Shown piece by piece: positions 1,217 through 10,793 of a stretch of DNA of 26,623 nt. How positions within the stretch are numbered: position 1 is the first letter of the stretch; each line of letters starts with the position of its first letter. Made by a program: the position numbers and the translations under genes. Below the pieces are notes generated by a model. That model worked only from the letters and a program-made list of their open reading frames with translations, did no database searches and had not been told where the DNA came from. This DNA is from a virus, in the IMG/VR virus record IMGVR_UViG_3300017987_000318, positions 1 through 26,623 of that record, one strand, 5' to 3'.

Positions 1217-1946
1217 GGTAAGCGATGCGCAGGACCGGGAAGCTCCGGAAGCGGTGGAGAAGATTCCTTTGCCGTATCCACCTCCACAGATGGGAGACAA
1301 GGATAATGGGCACCGGAATGCGGATGCGCCTGTTTCGGAAGTGCAAGGAATGCGGGGTGACGGATATCTGGTAGAAGGCAGGCCGGTGTCACCCGACGAT
1401 GTTACACTACCTCCTCGTTTTGATCTCGCTCCAATCCCGCCGGAGAACAAGGATATCGCGAGACGTCCGCGGAAGTTTACTCACCAAGCCAAGCGTAAGA
1501 TCCTCGTCGCGCTCAAAATGGGACACACTCCTGAGACCGCAGCAGACCACGGCGGAATCACGAAGAAGACCCTACTGGATTGGTGGGCCCGCGGTCAGAT
1601 GGCTGGGCCAGACTCCGAAGGTATCGATCTCGAGCTATATGAATTCTCCGAATTGTGTAGACAGGCACGTGCTGGTGGAAAGATGGGGCTCGTCGCTATC
1701 TGTTGGCGGCATGCCCGAGAAGATGGAAGGGTGGCAATCCAACTTCTAGAGAAGCTCTTCCCGGAAGATTATGGAAAGCAGACGACACATAAAGTCACCG
1801 GGAAAGTAGAACACGAGCACACAGCCAAAAGGGTAGACTACTCTGGATTCACTGATGAGGAATTGGATCAAGCAGAGAGCCTCGCCTTGAAAGCCCAAAG
1901 AGAGCGGCTGAAAGAAGAGGCTATCGATGCAGAGATCATTGAATGA
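1185..1946 (+). CDS. terS: Terminase small subunit (TerS), putative
   Basis: TerS recognises phage DNA and delivers it to the large subunit. The call rests on a helix-turn-helix-like segment at about residues 101-137 (KRKILVALKMGHTPETAADH, then a second helix with TKKTLLDWWARG), a helical centre, and a basic-acidic helical C-terminus (ALKAQRERLKEE). The gene sits directly before the large subunit and overlaps it by 20 bases. The first 95 residues are proline-rich and look disordered. Start choice is uncertain: GTG at 1185 lies too close to GGAG (1180-1183), GTG at 1194 is better spaced, and GTG at 1386 would remove the disordered part. The family is diverse, so the call depends partly on position. 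Confidence 0.75.
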   Translation: MIAVTNAKSSEVSDAQDREAPEAVEKIPLPYPPPQMGDKDNGHRNADAPVSEVQGMRGDGYLVEGRPVSPDDVTLPPRFDLAPIPPENKDIARRPRKFTHQAKRKILVALKMGHTPETAADHGGITKKTLLDWWARGQMAGPDSEGIDLELYEFSELCRQARAGGKMGLVAICWRHAREDGRVAIQLLEKLFPEDYGKQTTHKVTGKVEHEHTAKRVDYSGFTDEELDQAESLALKAQRERLKEEAIDAEIIE

Positions 1947-3636
1947 CGATCCGACCCTCGAAGAGATAAAAGAGCTAGGACCTCTTCCAAAGAAACCCAG
2001 AGCCCGCAGAAAGCGGGAAATCACCGATACAAAAGTTGAGGCCTTTGATCGTATCCTAGATCTGGACTCCATACGTGCGGAAAAGTCTTCTCGCCATCTC
2101 ATTACGTTTATCGAGAATGCTTGGCATGTCATAGAGCCGGAGAATCCGTTCGTCAGCAACTGGCATATAGGCTATATCTGCGAGGCTTTGGAAGCTCTCG
2201 CTGTAGGCCAGATCAAAGACCTATTGATCAACGTTCCTCCGCGGCATACCAAGTCCATGGTATCAACAGTCATGTTCCAACCGTGGGTCTGGACGAAGTG
2301 GCCACACCTCAGATGGATCTACTCTTCTTATTCCGCAACCCTTTCGCTCAAGCACTCCGGGTATGCAAAGAAGGTGATGCAGTCTAGGTGGTACAGAAGA
2401 CACTTTGGGCACATGTACACGATCACCTCTGAGGCTATCAAGGAAATCGAAAACGACAAGATGGGATACCGCCTCACGACATCCGTTGGTGGTATGGCGA
2501 CCGGTCGTGGTGGTGACATCATCGTAGTGGACGACCCACACAACGTTCGTGAAGCCCACTCGGAGATCAAAAGGGAGGGCGTACTCATTTGGTGGGATCA
2601 AGTAATGTCGACCCGTGCCGAGGGTGATCCTAGGAATCTTCGCCGGATGATCATTATGCAGCGTGTTCATGATCGTGATCTATCTGGACATGTGCTTGAA
2701 CAAGGAGGATGGACGCATCTTTGTCTTCCAATGGAGTTCGTGAAGAAGAGTCGATGCATCGTCCCGGATCTCGGTTTGACTGATCCTCGTGAGAAGGATG
2801 GAGAGCTTCTCAATCCAAAGCGTTTCGATCAAGAGTGGGTCGATAAACAGAAAGGCGCGAACGTATCCGGCAAGAACCCCAAGCTCAATCGCAAGATGGA
2901 TTCCTGGTCCTACGCAGGACAGTTCCAACAAGATCCCGTACCCCTTGAGGGTGGTATGGCGAAGAGAAAGTGGTTCGAGGATGCATTCTACAAAGACGAT
3001 CCGATGGAGATCTATGAGAGAGCATACAAGATCTTCACGTCATGGGATATGAGCTTCAAGGATGAGGAAGAAGCCAGTACCGATACCTCTTATGTCGTCG
3101 GCACAGTGTGGGCACAGATTGGTTTGTATCTCTATCTCATTCATATGTTCCGTGCGCAAATTGGTTTCAACGACACGCTCAAGGCTTTCATCAAGGTCCA
3201 CCAAGATTTCCCGAAGGCGCAAGAGAAGCTCGTAGAGGATCGCGCCAATGGTACCGCAATTATGGCGACGATGCGCAAGAAAGTCGCTGGTATCATCGCG
3301 GTCGACACAGGGAACGAACCGAAGACTGCTCGCTATGGCTCTGTTCTCTGGTTGATCGAAGCTGGTAATGTACGTCTTCCTGATCCAGAGATGTATTCTT
3401 GGGTCGAACTTGTTTTGGATGAAGCTTGTAGATTCCCGAAAGCATCTAGAGATGATATAGTTGACTCCATGACGCATGCACTGATACGCTATGCTGCATT
3501 CCAAATAGATCCTGATGCTTTCCCGACTGGTGTCGGCTTCGAGAATAGATTCCAACACGAGACTGGATGGTCTCCTGAAGATAGCTATACTACCCGAAAA
3601 GATGTCATGGGTAGTTGGGGGGTCCGCCGTAGGTAG
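1927..3636 (+). CDS. terL: Terminase large subunit (TerL), ATPase-nuclease
   Basis: This is the DNA-packaging motor and headful or site-specific nuclease, acting at the portal. The 569-residue length is normal. The ATPase domain shows a Walker A variant VPPRHTKSM at 103-111, Walker B DIIVVDDPH at 197-205, and a coupling motif MIIMQRVHDRDLSG at 241-254. The RNase H-like nuclease domain shows acidic residues in TSWDMSF (D374), VEDRANG (E437/D438) and DDIVDSMTHAL (D509/D510/D513). The adenine-binding region precedes Walker A, as in Terminase_6-type proteins. ATG at 1927 is preceded by GAAGAGG and overlaps the TerS stop. All key residues are present, so the protein should be active. Confidence 0.96.
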   Translation: MQRSLNDDPTLEEIKELGPLPKKPRARRKREITDTKVEAFDRILDLDSIRAEKSSRHLITFIENAWHVIEPENPFVSNWHIGYICEALEALAVGQIKDLLINVPPRHTKSMVSTVMFQPWVWTKWPHLRWIYSSYSATLSLKHSGYAKKVMQSRWYRRHFGHMYTITSEAIKEIENDKMGYRLTTSVGGMATGRGGDIIVVDDPHNVREAHSEIKREGVLIWWDQVMSTRAEGDPRNLRRMIIMQRVHDRDLSGHVLEQGGWTHLCLPMEFVKKSRCIVPDLGLTDPREKDGELLNPKRFDQEWVDKQKGANVSGKNPKLNRKMDSWSYAGQFQQDPVPLEGGMAKRKWFEDAFYKDDPMEIYERAYKIFTSWDMSFKDEEEASTDTSYVVGTVWAQIGLYLYLIHMFRAQIGFNDTLKAFIKVHQDFPKAQEKLVEDRANGTAIMATMRKKVAGIIAVDTGNEPKTARYGSVLWLIEAGNVRLPDPEMYSWVELVLDEACRFPKASRDDIVDSMTHALIRYAAFQIDPDAFPTGVGFENRFQHETGWSPEDSYTTRKDVMGSWGVRRR

Positions 3637-4708: not shown

Positions 4709-4736
4709 TTGACAAACGTGGTAGTTTTCCTACATT
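4709..4736 (+). promoter_or_regulatory. Sigma70-like promoter upstream of portal
   Basis: A perfect -35 hexamer TTGACA at 4709-4714 is followed after 16 bases by TACATT (4731-4736), a four-of-six match to TATAAT. Transcription would start about 4743, leaving a short leader to the portal ATG at 4758. The ten bases TCTTGACAAA recur at the second promoter near 7829. An inverted repeat GGTAG (4720-4724) and CTACC (4737-4741) flanks the -10 box and could be an operator. Confidence 0.45.
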
Positions 4737-4757: not shown

Positions 4758-6320
4758 ATGCCAAGCACTACTCCTATTTTGAAGTCGGCCAGGGAATACC
4801 TGGATCCTAAAGACTACGAGACCTACCTAGAAAAGCAATCCGAGTTCATGCGCGACCTCGGTACTGGCTACGATATGAGCCAGGTCGCCAAGCGAATACC
4901 TCGTGCTGCTCATTTCAGGGATGTTGGTGCTCCTGGTCTTAGAATCTATTCAGGGTTTCTCGAGGAGGAATTCCTTCCTGAACTCCGCGGGCATCTTGCT
5001 GCGCGTGTCTATCAAGAGATGCGTGACAATGATCCGACTGTCGGCGCGATGCTCTACGTTATGGAGCACCTTATTGGTAACGCGACCTTGAATGTGCTAA
5101 CCGATGATACCTCTCCGCAGGGCGAGAAGGCGCGCATGCTGGTTGAAACCTCTATCAACGACATGATCCACCCATGGAACCATGTCTTCTCTGAGATCCT
5201 CACGTTTCTGCCGTTCGGTTATTCGTACATGGAGGTGACGCTGAAGCATCGTAGGGGTCACCACAGAGATCCGAATAAGGATTCTCAATACAACGATGGT
5301 TTGATCGGTTGGAGCAAGATGGCGCTCCGCGGCCAAGATACTACGTATCGGTGGCACATGGACGAGACCATGAATGTAGTTGCTCTTGAGCAACTGCCGC
5401 CACCGCATTTCATAAATACCCTGGTACCAAGGGAGAAAGCTCTTCACTTCACGATCCGTCCGTACAAGTCGAATCCTGAAGGGCGCTCCATCCTACGCAA
5501 TGCATACAGACCTTGGTTCTTCATGAAAAGGATCGAAGAGATCGAAGCCATCGCCGTTGAGCGTGAACTCAATGGTATGCCTGTATTGCAGCCTCCTGAG
5601 GGATATAACCTATGGAACACGAAAGATCCAGTTGCTCAAACCCTGTTGACCCGCGCAGAGGAACTGGTGAGGAACATTCGACAGGATATGCATCAAGGTG
5701 TCGTGCTCCCATTCGGATGGACATTGACTCTTCTGAGTGCGACCGGCCAAAGATCTCTCGACACATCGATCATCATCAACCGTTACGCACAGCGCATCGC
5801 TACTGTAGCTCTTGCGGATATGCTTCTTATTGGGCAGGAACGTGTTGGTTCGTTTGCTCTCGTTGCGGCGAAAGTGAGTTTGTTCAGCAAGGCACTTAGA
5901 TCCGTGGCAAATGTTATCGAAGGTGAATTCAATCGACACGCCATTCCTAGACTGCTCCGAATGAATGGGATGCGTACAGAGAAGACGCCGTACATTAGAT
6001 TCGGTCCGATCGATACTCCAGATCTCAAGTCACTCGCAGAATATGTGAACAAGCTCGTTGGGAACAATGTATTGACTCCCGACCAGAACCTCGAGAGACA
6101 CATGAGGGAGATTGCATCATTTCCAATACGAATCGATCCTAGAGAGACATTACCAGCGATTGGTGACGTGATGGATCCTTCAGACGATGATGATCCACAT
6201 GATCAGCCAAATGTCGGTGCCCGTCCGGGACCGGCGGAGGACGCTTTCTCTGATCAGCCGAAGAAAAAGCCGGGGGAGGAACAACAAGCATTCCCACCTG
6301 AGGGAGGGGAGACAGCATAA
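4758..6320 (+). CDS. Portal protein (DUF935-like)
   Basis: The portal forms the dodecameric ring at one capsid vertex through which DNA is packaged and to which the connector binds. The 520-residue length fits. Recognisable features are LTFLPFGYSYMEV near residues 148-160, PEGRSILRNAYRPWFFMKR near 240-258 followed by IEEIEAIAVERELNGMPV, and a helical region near 340-410, as in DUF935/Mu gp29-type portals. The final 50 residues are acidic, proline-rich and probably disordered. GGGGAG precedes the ATG. The stop overlaps the next start in TAATG at 6318-6322, so the protease gene is probably coupled to it. Confidence 0.9.
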   Translation: MPSTTPILKSAREYLDPKDYETYLEKQSEFMRDLGTGYDMSQVAKRIPRAAHFRDVGAPGLRIYSGFLEEEFLPELRGHLAARVYQEMRDNDPTVGAMLYVMEHLIGNATLNVLTDDTSPQGEKARMLVETSINDMIHPWNHVFSEILTFLPFGYSYMEVTLKHRRGHHRDPNKDSQYNDGLIGWSKMALRGQDTTYRWHMDETMNVVALEQLPPPHFINTLVPREKALHFTIRPYKSNPEGRSILRNAYRPWFFMKRIEEIEAIAVERELNGMPVLQPPEGYNLWNTKDPVAQTLLTRAEELVRNIRQDMHQGVVLPFGWTLTLLSATGQRSLDTSIIINRYAQRIATVALADMLLIGQERVGSFALVAAKVSLFSKALRSVANVIEGEFNRHAIPRLLRMNGMRTEKTPYIRFGPIDTPDLKSLAEYVNKLVGNNVLTPDQNLERHMREIASFPIRIDPRETLPAIGDVMDPSDDDDPHDQPNVGARPGPAEDAFSDQPKKKPGEEQQAFPPEGGETA

Positions 6321-7813
6321 TGTCTGAATTCCACTCGGCGTTTCACCAGAAAGCAAAGGAACTCATTCCGGAGTTCTTGTACGAGCAGATCAAGTCTGCC
6401 GCCATCCCTATGTCGGGGGCACAGGCCAGATGGAAGATGTCTGGCCCGTCTATCTTCGAGAAGATCGCGATCCCTCAGCTTAGGCCGGAACGCTTGAAGA
6501 ACCTAAAGGATAAGGAACTCAAAACAATTCTTTCTCGGCTCAATAGGATATTTGTGACTGCGAAGCGGACGAAAGAAGACACATCAGCCTTCCTTAAGGC
6601 TAGCAATTGGGTGGTACAAGAGATGCGTGAACGAAAACTTTCTATCGATACGAAGCTGGCTGTTATCCAGGAGTACATCGGGAAGACTGACGACGAAGTC
6701 GAGAAGACACTCCAGGGTGAAATTATGCGCGATGCTCCAATGAGCGATCGAGGCTACACTGTAGAAGAGACGCTTCAGATGGTTTCGGAGAATGGTAAGT
6801 TCACCTTGGAACAGGCGAACTATATCGATCGCGCTCCGGATGGCCACACTACTTGCTCCGGTTGCCGTTTCTTCATGCGCTCCATGGGTGAGGCGGGGAC
6901 ATGTCAAGTCGTGGACGGCGATCCCATTTACTGGTTTGCCAAGTGCGATCTCAACATCTGCGCGAAGTATCTATCTGAGTTCAGGTTCCGTCTTGCGCAG
7001 GAGCTTATCCATTCTGAATTGATGGACCAAGCTCTCGGTCTACACAAAGCATCCGAGATGGGAAATGATGATGACGAAAATACTGATCCTAAAAAGCCAG
7101 TGATGGAACTCGTCAAGGCCAAGATCCGCAAGCGTATTCGTCCTACTGCTAGTGGAAAATGGGAAGTAACTGATGATTCTGGGCAGAAAGTTCTTGGAAC
7201 ACACGACAAGCGTTCCGATGCGATTCGCCAACTCGCTGCTATCGAGTCCTCGAAGCTCAAACGGCAAGGTGAGGAAACTGTGAAGCAGAAAGTGAAAGCC
7301 AAGCTGGAGCGTGAAACCAACAAACTTGACAAGAAATGTGGGGGAAAGGTGGATAAAGGACAGCCCACACTTGGGCAGGTTCACCAACCAGGTAGTGGGA
7401 AGGACGAGGATGAGGAAGACGACGAAATAAAGAAAGAAGATGTCTGGTTCAACGTCCCAATCGCGAAAATCGACAAGAAAAAGCAAAAAATTTACGGAAT
7501 CGTTCTCGAGCCAGAAGAGACCGACACTCAAGATGATACGGTGAGTGCAGAAGAGATCGAAAAAGCTGCGGAGAGCTTCATGCTCCGTTCTCGCCGGATT
7601 GGTCTGCGTCATCGTAAAGTCGCGGAAGGTGTTGAGTTGACAGATAGTTACGTGACACAAGGGCGTACCAAGCTCGGTCCAAAAAGCTTGAAGGTCGGCA
7701 CCTGGATCATTGGGGTGAAGGTGAAAGATCCTGCACTCTGGGCCGGAGTTGAACGTGGTGAGTACAACGGATTCAGCGTTGGAGGGCACGGAACTCGCAG
7801 AAAAAATGCCTGA
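6320..7813 (+). CDS. Multidomain capsid maturation protease (XkdF-like) with HiPIP-like cluster
   Basis: The 497-residue protein has four parts. The N-terminal 170 residues are helical and unassigned. Residues 175-215 hold C179, C182, C195 and C209, spaced C-x2-C-x12-C-x13-C with CxFF and CQVV-x-G features like high-potential iron-sulphur proteins. Residues 268-312 form a small basic repeat-like domain (SGKWEVTDDSGQKVLGTHD). An acidic linker leads to residues 374-497, an XkdF-type prohead protease: IYGIVLEPEETDTQDDTVSA, H431 and GFSVGG with S486, the likely catalytic pair. XkdF-like proteases cleave scaffold and capsid proteins in the prohead. The protein stops right after GFSVGGHGTRRKNA, whereas relatives usually continue to an EVSLV segment, found here in the next ORF. 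Confidence 0.82.
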   Translation: MSEFHSAFHQKAKELIPEFLYEQIKSAAIPMSGAQARWKMSGPSIFEKIAIPQLRPERLKNLKDKELKTILSRLNRIFVTAKRTKEDTSAFLKASNWVVQEMRERKLSIDTKLAVIQEYIGKTDDEVEKTLQGEIMRDAPMSDRGYTVEETLQMVSENGKFTLEQANYIDRAPDGHTTCSGCRFFMRSMGEAGTCQVVDGDPIYWFAKCDLNICAKYLSEFRFRLAQELIHSELMDQALGLHKASEMGNDDDENTDPKKPVMELVKAKIRKRIRPTASGKWEVTDDSGQKVLGTHDKRSDAIRQLAAIESSKLKRQGEETVKQKVKAKLERETNKLDKKCGGKVDKGQPTLGQVHQPGSGKDEDEEDDEIKKEDVWFNVPIAKIDKKKQKIYGIVLEPEETDTQDDTVSAEEIEKAAESFMLRSRRIGLRHRKVAEGVELTDSYVTQGRTKLGPKSLKVGTWIIGVKVKDPALWAGVERGEYNGFSVGGHGTRRKNA

Positions 7814-7828
7814 TCTGGGAAAATCCTC

Positions 7829-7858
7829 TTGACAAAACCTACGCAAATTTTGCATCAT
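7829..7858 (+). promoter_or_regulatory. Sigma70-like promoter upstream of scaffold/capsid operon
   Basis: TTGACA at 7829-7834 is a perfect -35 box within TCTTGACAAA, shared with the promoter at 4709. The best -10 is CATCAT at 7853-7858, a four-of-six match at 18-base spacing. It would drive the scaffold, decoration and major capsid genes, which are needed in large amounts. The weak -10 lies inside a palindrome, so repression or activation is conceivable. Confidence 0.4.
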
Positions 7859-7869
7859 CCAGATGATGC
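7852..7869 (+). promoter_or_regulatory. Palindrome GCATCATCCAGATGATGC, operator candidate
   Basis: Arms GCATCATC (7852-7859) and GATGATGC (7862-7869) are perfect inverted repeats around CA. The left arm covers the predicted -10 box. The size and symmetry fit a dimeric repressor site, but an RNA hairpin with a two-base loop is sterically poor, so DNA-level binding is favoured. Confidence 0.4.
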
Positions 7870-7881
7870 TGGGTAAGCCTA

Positions 7882-7908
7882 TCGACGCTCCTCAAAAGTA
7901 AGCGTCGA
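7882..7908 (+). promoter_or_regulatory. Leader hairpin
   Basis: TCGACGCT (7882-7889) and AGCGTCGA (7901-7908) form a perfect 8-bp stem with an 11-base loop. There is no T-run after it, so it is unlikely to terminate transcription. It may stabilise the 5' end of the capsid-operon messenger or mark an RNase cut. Confidence 0.45.
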
Positions 7909-7920
7909 CATCGCGCTTCA

Positions 7921-7969
7921 ACCCTACCCTACTTGCCTCACCCGCAAGGGTCTCGCAAGGGTCGCGTTG
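7921..7969 (+). promoter_or_regulatory. Leader able to sequester the scaffold ribosome-binding site
   Basis: ACCCT occurs at 7921-7925 and 7926-7930, and ACCC at 7940-7943. AGGGT occurs at 7947-7951 and 7958-7962. The second AGGGT is part of AAGGG (7957-7961), the likely Shine-Dalgarno site of TTG 7967. Nested pairing 7921-7925/7958-7962 plus 7926-7930/7947-7951 would hide it. The 10-base repeat CGCAAGGGTC (7943-7952 and 7954-7963) offers competing partners. Translational control is inferred. Confidence 0.35.
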
Positions 7970-9427
7970 AGCAATCCAGAACAAGTGATTGCCATGACTA
8001 CGCGGCTTAACAAGCGAGCAAAATACAGACTAGCAGACATTGATGCGCGAGAGGTGTCCCTAGTCCCCAAAGCCGCAAACAAGCAACGATTTCTACTCAT
8101 GAAAATGGAGGATCCAATGTCGGATCTCAACGACACCCAGCAATTTGAGGAAGAGATCCTGAAAGCCGACTTGGAGGAAGCATTGACTACCGAAGTTGAG
8201 AACGAAGACACCATTCTTGAAGGTATGGTGGAGAAAGAGAACCTCTCTAGTCGTGCCTGGAACGCCCTAAAGGGCACCCTCCGACTTTTCAAGGCTTTCG
8301 GAGATGAAATACCCGAAGACGTCATCGAGAAGATTGCACCACAGTCCAAATACGTCTACGAGTATGGTGATGTAAAGATCACCAAGGAAGAAGTTGACGC
8401 GTACCTGGAGGCGACCGAAACTGCGGAATGCAACGTAGATAAGGCGGAAAAACCAACGAAGTCTGAGGGCGGTAGAAATTTCTTTGCCTCCGACTACGCG
8501 TACGTACCGGACCCTCAGAAACCATCAACTTGGAAGCTACGTCTCACCAACACTCCTGGTGGAGCCCCAGATCCCAGAATCGTCGGAGCAGCTGTTGCTG
8601 CACTCGGCAAAGGATTCCGCGGACAAAAAGTCCAGCTTCCTGCGGCTGATCGCGGGAGGGTAAGAGCTAGAGTTCGCGCTGCGTGGTTGAAGGCCAACCC
8701 AGAAAAGTCTCGTGAAGACCTTCCAAACATTCTCAAATCGGACACGGAGGAAAAACCCATGGCTGATGAAAAGACTGCTCTAGAAGAGGAAGTCCAAAAG
8801 GGCGAACTCGAGGAAGAGCAGACACCGAAGTCCGAGGAAGTAGAGAAGGCCAAAGTTTCGAAGCAACCTCCTATGCCCTCTGAAGAGGAAGAAGAGGAGG
8901 AGGAAGAGAAGATGAAGAAGGCGAAGATGAAGAAGGCCGACGAAGCTTCCGAGGAAGTAACCATCTCCAAGGCTGATTACGAGAAGCAGCAAAAGGAAAT
9001 CGCTGCTATTCGTAAGGAGCAAGCGGAGACCAAAGCAGAACTCGAGGCAGAGCGTAAAGCTCGTGCCAACGAGAAGGCGATCGCCAAGGCCGCAGAGGAC
9101 TATCCGAATCTTCCTGTGAAGTCGGATGAACTCGGTCCTATGGTCCAGGCGGTTCATGAAGCTCTCACGAAGGAGCAAGCGGAGACCTTTGAGCGGATCT
9201 TGAAGGCTGCTGACGAAGCCATTGCGGCAACGAAGGCTTTCGAGGACGCGAAGGGCGGATCGTTCCAACTTTCTGAAGCTGGATCTGCATACGCTCGTAT
9301 CAAGGAGATCGCGAAGTCCATCGTCGAGAAGAGTGAAAACGGCATGACGGAAGCGCAAGCGTTCGTCAGAGCTACCGAAGAGAATCCGCGACTCTATGAC
9401 GAGTACCTAGCGGAAACCAGGGGGTAA
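7967..9427 (+). CDS. Scaffold-like capsid assembly protein with protease-tail segment
   Basis: The N-terminus (residues 21-45) reads RLADIDAREVSLVPKAANK and RFLLMK, the segment that normally ends prohead proteases. Residues 168-256 form a compact domain (FFASDYAYVPDPQKPSTWKL, later VGAAVAALGKGF and VRARVRAAWLK) met in protease-linked phage proteins. Residues 262-390 are glutamate/lysine-rich coiled coil, including a run of nine glutamates, typical of scaffolds that fill the prohead and are later degraded. TTG 7967 follows AAGGG at 7957-7961; ATG 7994 lacks a site. An internal ATG at 8117 has a perfect GGAGG at 8107-8111, so a shorter scaffold lacking the EVSLV segment is probably also made, recalling nested lambda C/Nu3. 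Placement before the capsid gene supports the role. Confidence 0.75.
   Translation: MSNPEQVIAMTTRLNKRAKYRLADIDAREVSLVPKAANKQRFLLMKMEDPMSDLNDTQQFEEEILKADLEEALTTEVENEDTILEGMVEKENLSSRAWNALKGTLRLFKAFGDEIPEDVIEKIAPQSKYVYEYGDVKITKEEVDAYLEATETAECNVDKAEKPTKSEGGRNFFASDYAYVPDPQKPSTWKLRLTNTPGGAPDPRIVGAAVAALGKGFRGQKVQLPAADRGRVRARVRAAWLKANPEKSREDLPNILKSDTEEKPMADEKTALEEEVQKGELEEEQTPKSEEVEKAKVSKQPPMPSEEEEEEEEEKMKKAKMKKADEASEEVTISKADYEKQQKEIAAIRKEQAETKAELEAERKARANEKAIAKAAEDYPNLPVKSDELGPMVQAVHEALTKEQAETFERILKAADEAIAATKAFEDAKGGSFQLSEAGSAYARIKEIAKSIVEKSENGMTEAQAFVRATEENPRLYDEYLAETRG
8107..8111 (+). promoter_or_regulatory. Internal ribosome-binding site GGAGG for nested scaffold start
   Basis: GGAGG lies five bases before ATG 8117 in the reading frame of the scaffold gene. 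It is stronger than the site at the upstream TTG start and would give a product beginning MSDLNDTQQ. Confidence 0.55.
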
Positions 9428-9433
9428 CTAAAC

Positions 9434-9829
9434 ATGGCTACCGAACTTCATGGTTTCAAGATCACTAGGGTTGCTGGAGAGGATCTTTCGGACAACCAGT
9501 ATCGCTTCGTGAAAATCGACCCTGCCAACCCCAATGAGGTCATCAAGGTGACCGCAAATACGGATGAGCCTGTTGGAGTCCAGCAAGGTGATCCCGAGGA
9601 AGGGGAAGAGGTTGAGATCGTTGTATACGGTATCACCAAGCTTGTCGCCGACAGTGGTATCAGCTACGGCGACGAACTCGGAACCTCTGCAGATGGTGAG
9701 GGAGACACGATTGTTTCTGGTATGGACGTGACGCAGTTCAAGCTTGGAAAAGCTATGGAAGATGCGTCCGGTGCTGGAACGATCTTCTCGGCGTTGATCG
9801 ATTGCGCAGCGCCTTCCAGGGCTGCATAA
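9434..9829 (+). CDS. Capsid decoration-like protein
   Basis: The 131-residue product is predicted all-beta and acidic. The pattern VGVQQGDPEEGEEVEIVVYGITKLVADSGISYGDEL near residues 47-82, with repeated glycine turns and a late GKAMEDASGAGTIFSALI, is that of DUF2190-type capsid cement or decoration proteins that stabilise the expanded head. It lies between the scaffold and the major capsid gene, the usual place for a decoration protein. Only a weak purine site (GGGGGTAA) precedes the ATG at six bases from the previous stop. The family name is inferred from pattern and position. Confidence 0.7.
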   Translation: MATELHGFKITRVAGEDLSDNQYRFVKIDPANPNEVIKVTANTDEPVGVQQGDPEEGEEVEIVVYGITKLVADSGISYGDELGTSADGEGDTIVSGMDVTQFKLGKAMEDASGAGTIFSALIDCAAPSRAA

Positions 9830-9842
9830 GGAGGATTGACCA

Positions 9843-10793
9843 ATGCCACAACCTACACTCAATCAAGTTCACGTAGACGCGATCCTCACCCAGGTCTCCG
9901 TTGCGTACATCCAGGAACAGGATGCCTTTTGTGCTACGAAGGTATTTCCGATCATTCCTGTAGACAAGAAGAGCGACCTCTACTATGTCTATGACAAGAA
10001 TGATTGGTTCCGCGATGAGGCGAAACGGCGAGCACCGGCTACCGAGTCGGAGGGGTCTGGATATAACGTCGGAACCGACAACTACAACTGCGACGTCTGG
10101 GCCATCCACAAGGATGTGGACAACCAGACTGCGTCCAATACGGACGTACCTCTCAATCCGTTCCGTGATGCCACTCGGTTCGTGACGCAGAAGATGCTTC
10201 TCCGTCAAGAGAATCAGTGGGCGGCTGACTTCTTCACTATCGGTGTTTGGGATAGCGATATCACTCTCACCGATTCCTGGGACGACTATGCGTCCTCCGA
10301 TCCTATCGACGATGTCGAAGAAGGAAAGGAGACCATTCTTGGTACGACCGGCCACAAGCCTAACACGCTTGTTATGGGCTACCAGGTGTTCCGGAAGCTG
10401 AAGAACCATCCGGACATCATCGACCGGATCAAGTACACGCAGTTCCGTGTCGTTGCTGAAGATCTTCTCGCCACCCTGTTTGGTGTAGAGCGGATCATGG
10501 TGTGTCGTGCAATTCAGGCGACCAATGCTGAGGGTGAGGCCGAAGCTTACGATTTCATCCAAGGAAAGCAGGCGTTGCTCATGTACGTTGCCAGCGCACC
10601 TGGGCTCTATGAGCCTTCCGCTGGATACACCTTCGCTTGGCGTGGAGTCAGCCAAGGTCTCGGAGAAGCCATCGGAATCACTCGTATCCCAATGCGCCTC
10701 AAGAAGGCGGAGCGGGTCGAGGCCGAGAAGGCGTGGGACAACAAGGTTGTCGCGCCTGACATGGGCTACTTCTGGACTAACGCTGTTTCCTAA
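9843..10793 (+). CDS. Major capsid protein
   Basis: The 316-residue protein is the likely HK97-fold shell subunit. Recognisable segments are VSVAYIQEQDAFCATKVFP near residues 18-36, FRDEAKRRAPATESEG near 56-71, and CDVWAIHKDVDNQ near 83-95, followed by a helical spine region and a C-terminal beta domain ending in DMGYFWTNAVS. The N-terminus is short, so a large cleaved delta domain is not evident; the separate scaffold may replace it. AAGGAGG at 9829-9835 is the best ribosome-binding site in the window, as expected for the most abundant protein. Two strong hairpins follow its stop codon. Confidence 0.88.
   Translation: MPQPTLNQVHVDAILTQVSVAYIQEQDAFCATKVFPIIPVDKKSDLYYVYDKNDWFRDEAKRRAPATESEGSGYNVGTDNYNCDVWAIHKDVDNQTASNTDVPLNPFRDATRFVTQKMLLRQENQWAADFFTIGVWDSDITLTDSWDDYASSDPIDDVEEGKETILGTTGHKPNTLVMGYQVFRKLKNHPDIIDRIKYTQFRVVAEDLLATLFGVERIMVCRAIQATNAEGEAEAYDFIQGKQALLMYVASAPGLYEPSAGYTFAWRGVSQGLGEAIGITRIPMRLKKAERVEAEKAWDNKVVAPDMGYFWTNAVS

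Follow-up and report, generated by a model that had tools for sequence, protein, structure and literature searches.

In the HK97-type protease gp4 (PF04586, Peptidase_S78) the GxSxG motif is followed by an EVSLV-type segment in the same chain (GMSVGF...REISVCTFPAN), and this C-terminal strand (residues 137-160) lies within the protease domain itself (PF04586 match 19-160). Among phages with proteases of the XkdF family (PF14550, Peptidase_S78_2/XkdF), Lactococcus/Enterococcus and gut phages carry the segment ahead of the protease in one chain. In psiM2 ORF12 the XkdF domain is followed by the segment (LADI...VVTVSIVDRPAV) and then by a scaffold-like tail, all in one gene. Protease and scaffold genes are apart in T4 (genes 21 and 22) and also in Salmonella phage 9NA (gp37/gp38), where the scaffold starts with the segment and carries a module named here PSTWKLRL. 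In a review (PMC7824862), XkdF is called unrelated to the prohead serine peptidase, the latter being assigned to Pfam S77; PMC5694885 describes, for SPN3US gp117/gp118, a protease relative without its 3' end, the missing length being found in the next gene. The present analysis concerns the protease and scaffold genes of the IMG/VR virus record IMGVR_UViG_3300017987_000318, of which positions 1 to 26,623 (the 26.6-kb stretch analysed as a whole) are hereafter called the window. Among the papers listed by the literature searches, none dealt with a protease strand carried by a scaffold.

We lean towards a reading with three parts, in which protease and scaffold are two genes by descent, the scaffold carries a strand that would complete or dock the protease, and a promoter and structured leader would provide separate expression of scaffold and capsid genes. 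The features on which it rests first are the following.

6320..7813, + strand: head maturation protease gene (497 amino acids; PF14550 match, E 4.5e-25; invariant D, H and S columns)
7814..7993, + strand: intergenic region from the protease stop to the scaffold ATG (180 bp)
7994..9427, + strand: scaffold-type gene (phrog_19463 match, E 2.3e-34; alternative TTG start at 7967)
8024..8110, + strand: EVSLV segment at the scaffold N-terminus (39.5 bits with the segment profile)

The window protease resembles the XkdF family in its domain, in its invariant D, H and S residues and in its place between the portal gene and the scaffold and major capsid protein (MCP) genes. The PF14550 match covered residues 381-492 (nt 7460-7795) at 88.5 bits, against a curated cut-off of 24, and profile positions 5-123 of 126. 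Residues D28, H57 and S112 of window:7442-7810 were invariant across 43 aligned family sequences, and we take the H and S of these columns to be catalytic. PF04586 gave no match in the window protease at E up to 0.1, and the protease domain had no sequence match in the PDB at E up to 1. As the initial annotation had reported, the open reading frame (ORF) stops right after GFSVGG (8 residues past it, with ...NGFSVGGHGTRRKNA as the C-terminus), and the segment RLADIDAREVSLVPKAANK heads the next ORF in the same reading frame after two in-frame stops, both present in the sequence (TGA 7811-7813 and TAA 7874-7876). The protease chain thus has no EVSLV-type terminal strand after its GxSxG motif; the PF14550 profile itself ends at GFSxGG and so does not include the segment. 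The 153-bp gap given earlier holds if translation starts at TTG 7967, but the ATG at 7994, which has a counterpart in both L008 and L009, the closest diverged relatives, gives 180 bp. The scaffold-type call is based on the position directly upstream of the decoration and MCP genes, the charged, coiled composition and the match to phrog_19463, a family of unknown function.

Relatives were gathered by capsid protein, scaffold, protease and a DNA pattern of the segment-coding region, and their loci were scored with an XkdF profile and a segment profile. By these scores, 72 of 124 XkdF loci were split; 51 were fused forms carrying the segment on the N-terminal side of the protease, and one, psiM2, was a fused form carrying it on the C-terminal side. 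These are counts of loci rather than of independent lineages, as near-identical contigs were kept separate among the loci remaining after the exclusion of ten (L001-L004, L006, L013, L085 and L086, which are the same contigs as kin of the window, and the copies L037 and L049). One locus (L125, Nonlabens) was scored as split by the script but proves, by eye, to be a fused form whose segment is N-terminal. psiM100, which shares 52% identity with psiM2 across 99% of the protein, has no class of its own in these counts. The expectation that XkdF-type proteases usually run from GFSIGG into the EVSLV segment was therefore not borne out, since 51 of the 52 automatically called fused forms had the segment at the N-terminal side and only psiM2 had it after; the expected order is that of the HK97-type Peptidase_S78.

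L008 and L009, whose capsid proteins are 82-83% identical to that of the window, likewise have two genes, and the last residue of their proteases corresponds to that of the window protease. In a tree of XkdF domains (95 rows thinned to 82), the window, L008 and L009 formed one clade (SH-aLRT, the approximate likelihood-ratio branch test, 99), all split, and the split and fused states needed 4 changes on a topology whose deep forks are not resolved. Many relatives (L024, L028, L045, L055, L072 and similar soil contigs) had 0.8-4 kb with at least one extra ORF between protease and scaffold. L014, L015 and L016 showed no XkdF domain over the 3.5-6 kb that precede their capsid gene. In L150, an XkdF ORF with an N-terminal segment (L150:1498-2025) stopped 16 residues past the domain, with a tblastn match extending to 2753; a stop or frameshift in a fused gene is possible there.

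Scaffold N-termini and psiM2 went into the segment profile, which matched the C-terminal strand of HK97 gp4 (residues 137-160) at 10.2 bits, and scored 16.2 bits in the S78 protease of Klebsiella phi12.4, 11.3 in Shpa, 10.1 in Mahdia and 8.8 in SpSL1. Five of seven S78 proteases beat 500 of 500 of their own shuffles. Over the 4535 ORFs of the fetched loci, all eight listed matches of 6-20 bits fell at expected places, this off-target check covering the listed band. Given the shuffle results and the clean band, homology is probable between the scaffold's 30-residue segment and the beta-strand at the C-terminus of HK97-type prohead proteases, in agreement with the earlier proposal that a piece of the protease sits on the scaffold. 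The arrangement differs in that the strand belongs to the protease's own domain in HK97 gp4, to the protease chain in the Lactococcus/Enterococcus type, and to a separate scaffold gene in the window.

AlphaFold2 models were made for a naturally fused protein (L134, comprising segment and XkdF domain) and for the window domain alone. In the L134 model the segment formed a strand (E10-25) with a predicted local distance difference test score (pLDDT) of 86 in block 11-20, followed by a linker at 42. The strand with the invariant serine was 17 residues long (E153-169) in L134 and 5 residues long (E110-114) in the window domain, where confidence was 70-79 at the end, a comparison limited by the two stretches ending at different distances from the serine. 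As DSSP strands need partners, docking of the segment on the protease domain is probable in the fused L134 model. For both models the best structural match was the T4 gp21 protease (5jbl_A; Z 10.2, 2.4 A and 120 aligned residues for L134; Z 9.0, 2.9 A and 111 aligned residues for the window), and the window model matched the human cytomegalovirus (HCMV) protease 1nkk_A at a Z of only 3.6. These matches are independent evidence for the T4 gp21 protease fold in XkdF. A Foldseek search against the PDB with the L134 fused model gave no match at E <= 0.001. HK97-type structures were absent from the VIA structural-match lists, which carries no weight.

A more specific form of the preferred reading, tentative but in our view the likeliest mechanism, is strand donation: the prohead protease of split-XkdF phages would receive its terminal beta-strand in trans from the scaffold N-terminus, and would be complete only on the scaffold inside the prohead. 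On the preferred reading the scaffold segment would most likely pair with the protease strand that carries the catalytic serine, so that completion, or docking, of the protease would require the presence of scaffold. The three places of the strand (C-terminal to the protease in S78 and psiM2, N-terminal in Lactococcus and gut phages, on the scaffold here) would then represent circular permutation and trans-splitting of one fold. Several results count against the scaffold segment acting as a missing protease strand. The window domain alone folded confidently (mean pLDDT 87.6), so the strand may be dispensable, and the pairing partner was read from predicted secondary structure only. On the sequence side, the segment score of DevonBitter was beaten by 2 of 500 shuffles, GBK2 scored no better than its shuffles, and T4 gp21 gave no segment-profile match. 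The segment also scored below 12 bits in 15 of the 72 split rows, and among these a variant was seen by eye in L115, L121, L123, L126, L128 and L177-L181, with no clear segment by eye in L118, L120, L124 and L176.

That same confident fold without the segment would suit a docking tag, that is, a scaffold segment lying outside the protease fold and tethering the protease to the scaffold core for packaging into the prohead; so would the position of the segment, which heads the scaffold in split phages and adjoins the protease in fused ones. We regard this as rather unlikely, as the homology to the S78 terminal strand, together with the predicted segment strand and the lengthened catalytic strand in the fused form, points to the fold itself. 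Less probable still is a relic, in which a former protease strand has become a scaffold N-terminus with its own structural role, such as binding the capsid protein. The clean end of the XkdF domain and the retention of its invariant D, H and S columns would suit a relic, but the segment pattern (S/G/A in column 12, V/C in column 14) was kept in 46 distinct split rows much as in 19 distinct fused ones.

The initial annotation had suggested gene fission, with a fused protease-scaffold gene cut by insertion of the promoter and leader. The shared frame and the two stops in the gap would fit, as would the existence of fused forms in psiM2 and, in the other order, in Lactococcus/Enterococcus and gut phages. 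Among the 57 split loci whose segment is clear, the frame of protease and segment was nevertheless shared in only 18, the window being one of them, which is the chance level as one in three is expected; it was shared in the window and L008 and different in L009. Fused relatives mostly have the other order, and psiM2 ORF12, which has the expected one, comes from an archaeal virus and is about 37% identical to the window over the protease domain. The closest relatives have separate genes and the same last protease residue, and split loci without any leader occur farther away: in L108 the genes are 2 bp apart with GAGGAGG ahead of the start, and in 9NA, which also differs from the window by a short protease (136 aa), start and stop overlap. 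The leader hence separates genes that are already apart in relatives lacking it. A comparison with close phages, proposed earlier as a check for one fused gene, found L008 and L009 with both genes apart; no single gene running through was found among close relatives in protease, capsid, scaffold, segment-DNA and leader-DNA pattern searches, and fused forms were seen only in distant relatives. Recent fission is thus very improbable, and on the comparison of these loci protease and scaffold are two genes by descent, an old split rather than a recent break.

Within the gap, the following elements were located.

7829..7858, + strand: promoter-like site TTGACA-N18-CATCAT (TTGACA-to-CAT spacing unchanged in L008 and L009)
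7865..7993, + strand: candidate structured leader at the 5' end of the scaffold mRNA (from folding z-scores and pair changes)
7882..7908, + strand: predicted hairpin TCGACGCT...AGCGTCGA (from the RNA fold)
7940..7951, + strand: predicted hairpin ACCC-GCAA-GGGT, enclosed by a 3x3 internal loop and lower stem
7971..7992, + strand: predicted stem GCAATC...GATTGC directly 5' of the ATG, with no Shine-Dalgarno sequence

TTGACA, 18 bases, CAT and then GCTGGG were common to the window, L008 and L009, and apart from one ORF in L009 no open frame ran through the gap in any of the three. Folding z-scores of the leader against shuffles were -2.8 (window, a moderately strong fold), -2.3 (L008) and -4.5 (L009). 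The 7940..7951 hairpin had counterparts in L008 (ACTC-GTAA-GAGT) and L009 (ACTC-TAAA-GAGT), giving the pattern ACYC-NNNA-GRGT, and this hairpin in its 3x3 loop, with the stem before the ATG, recurred in three separately made folds. Two-sided changes occurred in 9 of 33 consensus leader pairs (three sequences, in an alignment that is not structure-aware), and covariation from three sequences is suggestive only. The leader DNA pattern over viral contigs returned three known kinds only, in four contigs, and a looser pattern in 12 records gave 4 matches, all already known.

Promoter-like sites numbered 4, against a shuffle mean of 5.0, so that the TTGACA site is not significant alone, and the window leader ranked 11th of 408 windows in a dinucleotide z scan, which is not exceptional alone. 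The 3' part of the leader showed 3 double changes compared with 1.3 in shuffles, 48 of 500 shuffles reaching three (n = 3), and a covariance model of that part searched over 72 sources returned its 3 builders and one match at E 0.69. The earlier description of a gap with a promoter-like site and RNA structure holds, both having counterparts in L008 and L009, but neither element stands out statistically by itself. Shine-Dalgarno pairing at the scaffold start was -3.7, -2.9 and -2.7 kcal/mol in the window, L008 and L009, and at the MCP start -11.9, -11.3 and -11.3 kcal/mol, among the strongest; 4 of 24 window starts were at -3.8 or weaker, so that weak starts were not confined to the scaffold. 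The probable role of promoter and leader is to express the scaffold and capsid genes separately and at a higher level: the promoter-like site and the structured leader without a Shine-Dalgarno sequence would most likely let scaffold, decoration and capsid proteins be produced independently of the protease and in larger amounts. A second promoter-like TTGACA site (TACATT, spacer 16) was observed at window 4709-4736, in the gap upstream of the portal gene.

In L009, an HNH endonuclease ORF (L009:3644-4108; PF13392, E 2.4e-7) was present between the protease stop and the TTGACA box, and resembles a free-standing homing endonuclease. An intron or bypass element that would let the two ORFs give one product, for which this ORF and the frame shared by the window and L008 might speak, is hardly credible, as Rfam (group I/II introns and other RNAs) gave 0 matches at gathering score in the gap of the window, L008 and L009, the frame differs in L009, the HNH ORF lies upstream of the TTGACA box, and relatives have separate genes at many gap sizes. 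Readings by insertional fission, intron and bypass were all rejected, on the split state of relatives, the absence of Rfam matches and a frame shared at chance level.

Other modules changed gene among these loci, including one located within the window scaffold.

8483..8740, + strand: PSTWKLRL module (within the scaffold gene here)

The window, 9NA, L022 and L087-L089 carry this module in the scaffold, and L008 and L009 carry it in the protease. The profile for it is carried by L008 and L009, and a 27-bit match at window 8439-8660 is false, stemming from a wrong-frame seed. The module was also present in phage proteins without XkdF or segment (L090-L103). A four-cysteine stretch (CSGCRFF...C...C; window about 6854-6968) lay in the protease gene of the window, L008 and L009, and in L014 within an ORF (L014:4251-5591) ahead of the decoration gene; L009 gave a sub-threshold HIPIP match (E 0.022).

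The gene order of the window is terminase, portal, protease, scaffold-type, decoration/cement-like and MCP, the remaining genes being placed as follows.

1927-3636: terminase gene
4758-6320: portal gene
9434..9829, + strand: decoration/cement-like protein gene (PF09956, E 4.7e-5; phrog_673)
9843..10793, + strand: MCP gene (phrog_1005, E 1.8e-97)

The DNA of the gap was identical in two contigs of other metagenomes (L001, 6034 bases identical; L002, 1 mismatch in 8411), and as both carry matching DNA an assembly error was ruled out for the gap.

To our knowledge, how prohead proteases stay inactive until the capsid shell closes is not well understood. If the scaffold does carry the completing strand, protease activity would depend by design on the assembly of the scaffold. 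The probable homology of the segment would also connect XkdF-type and HK97-type proteases at the sequence level, in contrast with the description "unrelated" in PMC7824862.

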